18,842 bases of DNA from an uncultured Anaerolineaceae bacterium (GTDB lineage: Bacteria; Chloroflexota; Anaerolineae; Anaerolineales; Anaerolineaceae): NCBI GenBank assembly GCA_937894825.1, contig CALCQT010000220.1:1-18842 (forward strand). The letters run 5' to 3'. A model generated the notes under the pieces. The model was not told where the DNA came from. It worked only from the letters and a program-made list of their open reading frames with translations, and made no database searches. The translations under genes and the position numbers were made by a program. Positions 15,282-18,842 of the stretch are shown one piece after another (the first letter of the stretch is position 1; every line of letters begins with the position of its first letter).

Positions 15282-15420
15282 GTTTTCGTTTAATGACTTT
15301 TTTGCTTTTTATTAAATATCAATATACGACACATATTGTATAAAAAACAAGAGGACAATGATAGCAATAGTTGTAATAATAATACATAGAAATTCATCAA
15401 AACAAATAGGATCTCTTTCG

Positions 15421-16515
15421 ATGGGAAATATTAAGTTAGGCCTTGGCTTATATCGCCATATGTTAACCGATGAGAATTTTGCATTTGCCCGCCAGTGTGG
15501 GTGTACTCATTTAATTGTTCATTTGACGAATTATTACTCTGAACAAATCGTAACCGCAACCGATGAAAACAGAAACTATGGCGAAGCATTCGAGAAAGAT
15601 CCCATTTGGCAGGTGGATAACATTGTTGGACTGCAGAAAAAGGCGAGGGATCATGGACTCGAAATTTATGGCATAGAAAATTTCAGCCCGGCAGATTGGT
15701 ATGACGTCTTGCTGGATGGCCCCAGACGGGATGAGCAGATGGCTTTTCTGAAAGAAATCATTCGAAATGTTGGTAAGGCGGGCATTAAGGCGTTTGGCTA
15801 TAATTTCAGCCTGGCGGGGGTTTGGGGGCATCAGAAAAAGAACGCGGCCAGAGGCGGAGCGCAAAGTACCAGTTTTGATGCTTCAGAAATTACCTGGGAT
15901 GCTCCCATTCCCAGGGGAGAAATCTGGAACATGTCCTACGGCCCTAAAGACGGAACATTTCATGATCCTGTAAGCTCAGAAGCGTTGTGGGACAGGCTGG
16001 AACGATTTTTGTCAGAGATGCTGCCGGTTGCGGAACAGGCCGGGGTCTCGTTAGCGCTTCATCCTGACGATCCGCCTTTGGAAAATTTGCGTCAAATGCC
16101 CCGTTTGGTCTATCAACCGGACTATTACCAGCGGGTTATTGATATTTCATCCAGCTTGTCCAACAAATTGGAATTTTGCATGGGAAGTGTTCAGGAAATG
16201 TCCCGGGGTGATATTTATAGCGCTATCAGACAATATGCGAAGCAGAAAAGGATCAGCTATATTCATTTTCGGAATGTGAAAGGAAAAGTACCCCGTTATG
16301 ATGAAGTGTTTGTCGATGAAGGGGACATTGATATGTTTAAAGCGCTGGCACTTCTGAATGAATATGAATTTGATGGTGTGATGATACCGGATCATACGCC
16401 GGAACTGTCCTGTCCCGGTCCCTGGTATGCCGGAATGGCGTTCGCATTGGGTTACATGCGAGCGGCACTGCAGATGATAGACAAGGGAATCTTGCCCCAT
16501 TCATCAGTGGAATAA
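15421..16515 (+). CDS. uxuA: Mannonate dehydratase
   Basis: A 364-residue UxuA-family enzyme (D-mannonate dehydratase, EC 4.2.1.8), which converts D-mannonate to 2-keto-3-deoxygluconate in glucuronate catabolism. The fold is a TIM barrel with a metal site built from His, Cys, His and Asp; here H214 in LALHPDDPP, C253 in LEFCMGSVQE, H282 in YIHFRNVKG and D324 in MIPDHTP. The length is usual. The frame is open from ATG 15358, but that site has a ribosome binding site only 3 nt away and would add a hydrophobic leader not known in the family. ATG 15421 has AGGA at 15408-15411 and matches the usual start (MGNIKLGLGLYRHM). It opens a plus-strand series with an SDR gene 34 nt downstream. Confidence 0.92.
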   Translation: MGNIKLGLGLYRHMLTDENFAFARQCGCTHLIVHLTNYYSEQIVTATDENRNYGEAFEKDPIWQVDNIVGLQKKARDHGLEIYGIENFSPADWYDVLLDGPRRDEQMAFLKEIIRNVGKAGIKAFGYNFSLAGVWGHQKKNAARGGAQSTSFDASEITWDAPIPRGEIWNMSYGPKDGTFHDPVSSEALWDRLERFLSEMLPVAEQAGVSLALHPDDPPLENLRQMPRLVYQPDYYQRVIDISSSLSNKLEFCMGSVQEMSRGDIYSAIRQYAKQKRISYIHFRNVKGKVPRYDEVFVDEGDIDMFKALALLNEYEFDGVMIPDHTPELSCPGPWYAGMAFALGYMRAALQMIDKGILPHSSVE

Positions 16516-16549: not shown

Positions 16550-17320
16550 ATGAATAATGCGTTGATGGAAACTTTTGGATTGGCTGGAAAAGTTGCTTTG
16601 GTAACTGGCGGTGGCAGCGGGTTGGGCTACGCCATGGCAAACTGCCTTGCTCTGGCGAGGGCGAAAGTTATCATCACAGGCAGGCGTAAAAAACTATTGG
16701 ATGAAGCATGTGAAAAGATCGGTTCCGGTGTGAGTGGGAAAGTGTTTGATGTTACTTCCACCGAGAAAACGAGCGGCTTTGTTCAGGAAATTGTTAATGA
16801 GAATGGGAGTCTGGATATTCTCATCAATAACGCTGGCGTTCATTGTAAAAAGCCGATCGAAAATGTCACAATGGCTGACCTTAAAAGTGTGCTGGATGTT
16901 CATTTGTTCGGAGCGTACGCGCTTACCCAGGCGGTAGTGCCTTTTATGAAGGCTCGTAAAGACGGCAGCATTATTTTTATTTCCTCAATGTCGGCCTTTA
17001 TCGGGCTTACCAACGTTAGCGCCTATTCTGCTGCGAAAGCTGCGGTATTAGGATTGGTAAAAACGATTTCAGGGGAAGTTGCCGGAGATGGCATACGCGT
17101 TAATGCTATCGTGCCGGGATTTATTGATACGCCCATGTTTCGTGAGGTTACAGACGCGGATCCGGAACGCAAAAAGAAGATTTTAGGTCATACACCCATG
17201 GGAAGATTTGGCTCGCCTGAAGATATTGGTTGGGCTGCGGTATATTTGTCAGCGAAAAGTTCACGTTTTGTGACCGGAACCGCGTTGATGGTTGATGGTG
17301 GTTGTGCCATAGGGTTTTAG
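16550..17320 (+). CDS. SDR-family oxidoreductase, probable fructuronate (mannonate) reductase
   Basis: A 256-residue classical short-chain dehydrogenase. Visible are the dinucleotide motif TGGGSGLG (19-26), NNAG (93-96) and the catalytic S146, Y159 and K163 in YSAAK, followed by VNAIVPGFIDTPMF and the C-terminal VDGG. R45-R46 after the second beta strand suggest NADP(H) preference. It lies 34 nt downstream of uxuA with GGGGGA (16539-16544) before ATG 16550. In Bacillus the D-mannonate/fructuronate oxidoreductase UxuB (YjmF) is also an SDR next to uxuA, so that activity is the best guess. Gluconate 5-dehydrogenase or a related keto-acid reductase is an alternative. Confidence 0.88.
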   Translation: MNNALMETFGLAGKVALVTGGGSGLGYAMANCLALARAKVIITGRRKKLLDEACEKIGSGVSGKVFDVTSTEKTSGFVQEIVNENGSLDILINNAGVHCKKPIENVTMADLKSVLDVHLFGAYALTQAVVPFMKARKDGSIIFISSMSAFIGLTNVSAYSAAKAAVLGLVKTISGEVAGDGIRVNAIVPGFIDTPMFREVTDADPERKKKILGHTPMGRFGSPEDIGWAAVYLSAKSSRFVTGTALMVDGGCAIGF

Positions 17321-17556: not shown

Positions 17557-18216
17557 ATGCAACAAACAGAACTTGAATTATTCGAATTGATGAAAGAAAA
17601 GTTATATACGCCTGTCGTCGGGGATATTTTAGATGAGATGGGATATTACCATCAGTTCCTGCCTCAGAATATCCGTCCTCTGGACCCATCCATGAAGCTT
17701 GCCGGTAAAGCCATGACAGTGCTGATGATCGACGTCTATGGCCTGCAAAAAAAACCTTTCGGTCTTTTGACGGAAGCTTTGGACCAGTTACAGCAGAATG
17801 AAATCTATATCGCTACGGGCGGGCTAAAACGTTGTGCCTATTGGGGCGAACTTCTGACGGCTACGGCTCGCACTCGCGGCGCGGTCGGGGCCGTTGTGGA
17901 CGGCTGGCACAGAGATACACCACAGGTGCTGGAACAGGATTGGCCTGTTTTCAGTTGCGGGTGCTATGCGCAGGATTCCAGCGTTCGCACGCAGGTTGTC
18001 GATTTCCGCTGCCCGATTGAAATTGGTCAGGTGACAATTCATGATGGCGACCTGGTTTTTGGGGATATCGATGGTGTTTTGATCATTCCGCAAGCGACCG
18101 CTTCTGAAGTTGTGGAGAAATCGTTAAAAAAGGCTGCGGGTGAAAAAGTCGTCCGCAAGGCGATCGAAAATGGGATGACGGCCACCGCAGCTTTTGAAAA
18201 ATTCGGTATTTTATAA
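17557..18216 (+). CDS. RraA-like protein (HMG/CHA aldolase fold)
   Basis: A 219-residue member of the RraA / 4-hydroxy-4-methyl-2-oxoglutarate aldolase family. Members with the full motif are divalent-metal aldolases or decarboxylases of keto-acids; true RraA regulators of RNase E lack key residues. Here [17 protein letters not shown] with RTRG and then VVDGWHRD (G97-E98, R107, D115, R119, D120) is preserved, as is [12 protein letters not shown] (167-178). That favours an enzyme over an RNase E inhibitor. ATG 17557 has GCAGG (17546-17550) 6 nt upstream. The next gene starts 13 nt after its stop, which places it in the altronate dehydratase operon. A role on a uronate-derived keto-acid is inferred. 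Confidence 0.85.
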
Positions 18217-18229
18217 AGAGAAGCGCCTC

Positions 18230-18565
18230 GTGACGGAAATACAAAAAGCATTCCAAATTATGCCTTCGGACAATGTTGCAACTGCCCTGGCGCCCTTGGC
18301 GCCGGGGGAAGTGACGTTGATTGGCGACAGCCCGCTGAGAAGTCTTGAGGCCGTAGTGTCCATCCCGGCGGGCCATAAAATTGCGTTGAGCGATATTGAT
18401 GAAGATCAACCTGTAATAAAGTATGGTGTTGTGATTGGAAAGGCGACAAAACAGATCCGCAAAGGGACCTGGGTTCATTTACATTGCATGAAAAGTGTTT
18501 ATGATGAGCGTTCTTCGCACTTGGACGTTATGACGGGCGCCCCTTTGGATATCCGCTATGAATAA
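18230..18565 (+). CDS. UxaA-family SAF domain protein (altronate dehydratase small subunit)
   Basis: A 111-residue stand-alone SAF domain corresponding to the N-terminal part of altronate dehydratase (UxaA) and of related galactarate and sulfolactate dehydratases. Evidence is [38 protein letters not shown] and WVHLHC. The usual motif ends VHxHN; here the Asn position is Cys (C86), which is unusual. GTG 18230 is taken as the start, with AAAGAG at about 18215-18220 at the end of the previous gene; an in-frame ATG at 18194 would overlap that gene. Its stop overlaps the start of the next gene (ATG 18558) by 8 nt, so small and large parts were meant to be translated together. Confidence 0.85.
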
Positions 18566-18842
18566 ATTCGAAAATACACCGCTTTTGGATCGCCGATGGC
18601 TGGGCTTTGCCCGTCAAAACGGCAGTAAAGGTGAAAAAACGGGGCATTGAGTTGAAATATGTCGACGGTCAACAGCAGCAAGCAAACCAGATTAAAGCGA
18701 TCCGCTCCTTTATTGCGCAGAAAGTTGATGTGATCGGTTTTTCCGGATGCACCGACAACGAATATGCGGTGCGGCTGTTGATCTCCCTGATCCGGCATCC
18801 CAACATCGGCGGTGTCCTGGCTGTGGGGCTGGGCTGTGAATA
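18558..18842 (+). pseudogene. uxaA: UxaA catalytic-subunit gene, disrupted mosaic, cut by the window edge
   Basis: ATG 18558 overlaps the SAF gene stop and opens 30 residues containing [10 protein letters not shown], the Gx-R-x-x-G-x-x-G start of the UxaA catalytic domain (E. coli has RRANGDVGVRN there). The frame then ends at TGA 18648-18650. From 18745 to the window end another frame reads [20 protein letters not shown] and then [12 protein letters not shown], unmistakably UxaA further downstream. The roughly 50 residues normally between these two parts (VRN... to GC) are missing and replaced by a segment of different origin (18634-18744). The family length is about 390 residues; the rest lies outside. 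As it stands the gene could not make a working altronate dehydratase. Confidence 0.75.
18634..18744 (+). pseudogene. Fragment of a YtfQ/ChvE-like sugar-binding protein inside uxaA
   Basis: These 37 codons read [20 protein letters not shown] and [17 protein letters not shown], the hallmark early segment of YtfQ-type periplasmic sugar-binding proteins. It is out of frame with the UxaA start but in frame with the UxaA part that follows, with no stop at the second junction. No start codon with ribosome binding site precedes it, although GTG 18631 is available. Confidence 0.7.

Follow-up and report, generated by a model that had tools for sequence, protein, structure and literature searches.

Does the uxaA gene at the end of this contig truly carry a piece of a YtfQ-type binding-protein gene in place of its own sequence, or was the mosaic put together in the assembly? 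The window, that is, the whole stretch of DNA that was analysed (18,842 bases), is one entire contig (C220) of a draft genome (G000) with 613 contigs, 3,380,372 bases in total, a completeness of 95.91% and a contamination of 3.2%, and the mosaic runs to the final base of the contig. Judging from sequence comparisons, we consider it very likely that the mosaic is an assembly artefact at the contig end and not a biological feature. The organism itself would most likely have an intact large gene of the usual UxaA type (altronate/galactarate dehydratase), with ~414 codons and located after a SAF-domain gene, and the ytfQ piece—~90 bases replacing ~86 of uxaA—most likely came from a different member of the community. 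Neither a biological mosaic nor a dead altronate branch is required.

Setting and composition of the mosaic

The upstream neighbour of uxaA encodes an RraA-family protein (17557 to 18216, forward strand; Pfam PF03737, 4e-34), which is 100% identical over 219 amino acids to the protein cluster P0121, whose longest contig measures 1,142,766 bases. Between the two genes, and overlapping both, lies an open reading frame with a SAF domain (18194 to 18565, forward strand; Pfam PF08666, 2.3e-8 on 18206 to 18562), which we take to be the N-terminal part of a UxaA whose small and large parts are encoded separately. Farther upstream we observed a mannonate-dehydratase-like gene (15358 to 16515), with a score below the model cut-off, and a short-chain dehydrogenase gene (16550 to 17320), which scored barely above the cut-off of a "glucose 1-dehydrogenase" subfamily and below that of KduD; a second dehydrogenase, similar to this one by eye, lies downstream of uxaA on another contig of the genome, C15 (L015 987 to 1751). 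The end of C220 and the start of C15 are probably parts of one hexuronate or aldonate locus. For a permease gene elsewhere on C220 (8977 to 9894), a relative at 84% is present in a single genome of the genus, and given this relative C220 seems to be correctly binned.

The large uxaA gene opens on the forward strand with 25 unchanged codons (18558 to 18632), all 25 residues being those of residues 1 to 25 of the UxaA protein P0001. At a blunt, frame-breaking first junction (18633 to 18634), where at most one base is in common, the sequence passes into a foreign part of 30 YtfQ-type codons (18634 to 18723) that replace 29 codons of UxaA. There follows an ambiguous stretch, VDVIGFS (18724 to 18744), present both in the YtfQ-type protein P0242 and in UxaA (P0001 residues 55 to 61), which is the site of the second, in-frame junction. 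Comparison with P0001 and C15 identifies the remainder, 18745 to 18842 on the same strand, as UxaA codons 62 to 93 and two bases of codon 94, where the contig ends. With the ambiguous stretch counted on either side, the whole YtfQ-identical patch spans 37 codons (18634 to 18744), identical at 37/37 residues to the metagenome YtfQ-type proteins P0241 and P0242, and 18724 to 18840 encodes UxaA residues 55 to 93, identical to P0001. This is the layout that the initial annotation had read from the sequence—a UxaA start from 18558, 37 YtfQ-type codons, a return to UxaA, a first junction out of frame and a second in frame—and the protein comparisons bear it out in each of these parts. The frame that begins at 18558 meets a stop, TGA, at 18648 to 18650, so that no uninterrupted reading frame leads on from the start codon; such a frame is present in P0001.

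Profile and DNA searches give the same picture of two sources. An open frame at 18607 to 18840 (78 amino acids) matches Pfam GD_AH_second in its second half (2.4e-9) and Peripla_BP_4 in its first half, the latter below the cut-off at 6.3e-5, and 18715 to 18840 matches PF04295 (positions 43 to 88 of the 136 in the profile) with 36.5 bits against a curated cut-off of 27.3. On the DNA level, 18635 to 18735 is 76% identical to ytfQ of Escherichia coli (E value of 4e-11). Given these E values and the 37/37 identity, a chance resemblance of the patch to YtfQ is, on sequence comparison, untenable.

The two junctions differ in kind. UxaA sequence continues as far as GGTG at the first junction, and the donor sequence takes over from AAAAAACGG; residue 26 of P0001 is valine (GTN), and the residue preceding KKRG is alanine in all five donor-like proteins compared (P0241 to P0245), which leaves at most one base in common. 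The second junction keeps the frame because the seven codons of VDVIGFS are common to UxaA and the donor, the shared DNA word (up to ~21 bases) being deduced from the protein identity of P0001 and the donor. Between the first junction and the last base of VDVIGFS, the gene of P0001 has 108 bases (36 codons) and the window 112, hence the break in frame. VDVIGFS aside, we found no wider homology between the native and the foreign segments beyond the level of 500 shuffles (score of 19; shuffle mean of 16.1 and maximum of 37).

The intact gene and the contig break

A PF04295 profile search of the genome returned two places, the end of C220 and the start of C15, the latter below the cut-off of 27.3 (profile positions 96 to 133, 18.3 bits). 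C15 opens with 317 UxaA codons (L015 1 to 954), its base 1 lying in codon 98. With this piece as the query, the best protein was P0001, an intact UxaA of 414 amino acids encoded on a contig of 1,142,766 bases; this one member sequence on one contig is the whole basis of the intact allele. P0001 equals C220 over residues 1 to 25 and 55 to 93 and C15 at 316 of the 317 residues from 98 to 414, and its residues 26 to 54, the stretch that the patch replaces, are ordinary UxaA sequence of the family (compared with P0003, P0005, P0008, and P0013). With P0001 as a guide, the gap implied between C220 and C15 is 10 bases; the two contig ends share no ungapped overlap of 8 to 200 bases at >60% identity and no 12-mers. 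A search of this genome with P0001 (E value of ≤1e-20) found C15 as its sole match, and the 1,142,766-base contig therefore lies outside this assembly. Since the longest contig of the RraA cluster has the same length, the intact uxaA most likely shares its neighbourhood with RraA.

P0001 carries both domains of the large part (Pfam PF04295 and PF20629), as do split dehydratases of the UxaA/GarD type, in which a small SAF part accompanies a large part; unlike these, the copy on C220 is cut and broken in frame. The only NCBIfam model that P0001 matched is galactarate dehydratase, at 163 of 730.85 bits, which is so far below the cut-off that it does not settle whether the substrate is altronate or galactarate. 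The initial annotation had suggested that, if the mosaic were real, the altronate branch would be dead or would have gained an odd fusion; the intact gene in another assembly speaks against this, and the uronate step in this lineage should not be called dead. As a separate observation, residue 185 of the frame that opens C15 (residue 282 of P0001) is tyrosine where P0001 and five other relatives have aspartate, which may be either a strain difference or a further base error of the assembly.

Assembly join or recombination

The reading of the mosaic as an artefact is supported by two facts taken together: another assembly has an intact allele, and the site lies at a contig break. Two marks of a chimera were found, namely, a recipient gene that is intact in a longer assembly (P0001, on its 1,142,766-base contig) and an insert that is missing from the rest of the genome, where its own relatives are at most 59% identical. 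A plausible course of events would start from an assembly that is weak near the break between C220 and C15, where the sequence is short of ~10 bases and C15 departs from P0001 at one residue. The true path may have been left at this weak spot through a chimeric read, a local mis-join, or a gap-closing error; the assembly would then have run along ytfQ reads from a different organism and returned to uxaA through the word of up to ~21 bases common to both genes. The two routes, of 108 and 112 bases and thus nearly equal, would form a bubble in the assembly graph, of which the better-covered, false branch would have been kept. With at most one base in common, the first junction rules out a pure join by shared k-mers at that point, and a chimeric read or gap-filling error is assumed there. 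A review (PMC7299287) describes how chimeric contigs arise where shared k-mers or sequencing errors link assembly graphs, chiefly between related species. The mosaic resembles the intergenome chimeric contigs of short-read metagenomes in that two sources are joined at a common word near a contig break and both parent proteins are intact in other assemblies; it differs from them in that its junctions are only 111 bases apart, which makes the foreign part an island, and in that the common word is found at one junction only.

The alternative that survives best is a true event of illegitimate recombination over a short patch, similar to homology-facilitated illegitimate recombination (HFIR) or short-patch double illegitimate recombination (SPDIR) in natural transformation, which would have carried ~90 bases of a foreign ytfQ into uxaA and inactivated the gene in this strain; we give it a small chance. 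Both HFIR and SPDIR are named as processes of this kind in a review (PMC7192050). The mosaic offers such a process several points of support: the genome contains no further copy of the patch, the lengths exchanged are nearly equal (90 versus ~86 bases), as a true patch replacement would give, and one junction falls in a common word while the other is blunt. Patches left by SPDIR are typically small, and the patch seen here is likewise a small foreign piece about as long as the piece that it replaces. Against recombination, the patch lies 98 bases from the contig end, beside an implied gap of 10 bases; an intact allele exists in P0001; and the frame is ruined, yet the variant would need to have become the consensus. 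In contrast to SPDIR and HFIR events, this mosaic is known from an assembly alone, and at an assembly break. The same small chance applies to its furthest-reaching form, a natural cross-species, perhaps cross-phylum, replacement by a Bacillota-like ytfQ, with a seven-codon word as its anchor that two unrelated genes would have in common by chance. Were the patch genuine, it would represent a short-patch replacement between species, found in nature. With an assembly artefact as the preferred explanation, the case is above all one for caution, in that mosaics at contig ends in fragmented drafts need comparison with other assemblies before they are given a biological reading.

Source of the patch and relatives of the gene

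As a protein query, the patch gave 2286 matches, of which 120 were listed and seven compared. Among the matches listed, the nearest relatives with an organism name belong to a "Firmicutes bacterium", at 89% across 93% of the query, to a "Bacillota bacterium", and to "Capillibacterium sp.", and further named relatives include Variovorax. The best NCBIfam model for P0242 is YtfQ, at 360 bits against a cut-off of 510. A DNA search of G000 found no second copy of the patch, only the patch itself, and from its absence elsewhere in this 95.91% complete genome we infer that P0241 and P0242 belong to another organism. The donor was likewise not found among 147 genomes of the family, own genome included (7 of the 146 others match, at 72 to 82% over ~45 to 110 bases), nor among 400 genomes of the phylum, again with its own (10 of the 399 others match, at ≤80% of residues), and viral contigs had no exact match to a 33-base pattern taken from the patch. 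The DNA of the wider locus (17557 to 18842), compared with 101 genomes including its own, gave short, weak matches in 7 of the 100 others, none of them a close DNA relative or a further copy of the locus.

These searches bear directly on a second alternative, in which uxaA recombined, or was joined in the assembly, with a ytfQ from its own genome or uronate cluster. The genome does have YtfQ-type binding proteins, for example, on contig C345, which would make a source at hand; the one on C345 is its nearest, at 59% identity over 34 residues, the relatives of the patch among its proteins range from 38 to 59%, and apart from the patch itself there is no DNA match in the genome, which at a completeness of 95.91% might still be missing a copy. 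This origin is left with a very slight probability. The initial annotation had two proposals, a recombination event inside a uronate cluster and a chimera of adjacent genes made in the assembly: an assembly chimera is supported by the intact allele elsewhere and the contig break, and neither the neighbouring genes nor the uronate cluster are supported as its source, as a second copy of the patch was not found in this genome. The remaining alternative, in which UxaA proteins of this clade would normally vary in this way and carry the YtfQ-like stretch—in keeping with the in-frame second junction and with a length that is about right, and named by the initial annotation as the observation that would overturn its reading, should KKRG...GFS prove usual in homologues—has a negligible probability and can be considered refuted, as the patch words KKRG and QQQQ occur in 0 of 71 relatives (80 related public-genome loci, with the stretch readable by motif in 71 and the motif missing in 9), P0001 lacks the patch, the frame is broken, and the piece is identical to YtfQ-type proteins at 37/37 residues.

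Two observations on the relatives of the gene stand apart from the origin of the mosaic. A direct repeat of, by eye, ~86 residues (DYCKSVQQYSVSPGN...) in P0002, a metagenome UxaA of 485 amino acids, has the look of an assembly error in a relative of this uxaA gene. The relatives of P0001 reach up to 74% identity, with 70 to 72% in named Bacillota and Sphaerochaeta; within its own family, UxaA relatives were found in 10 of 146 other genomes (E value of ≤1e-20), at identities of 31 to 41%. This difference between the own family and Bacillota or Sphaerochaeta suggests that the uxaA gene of this lineage may have been acquired by horizontal transfer.
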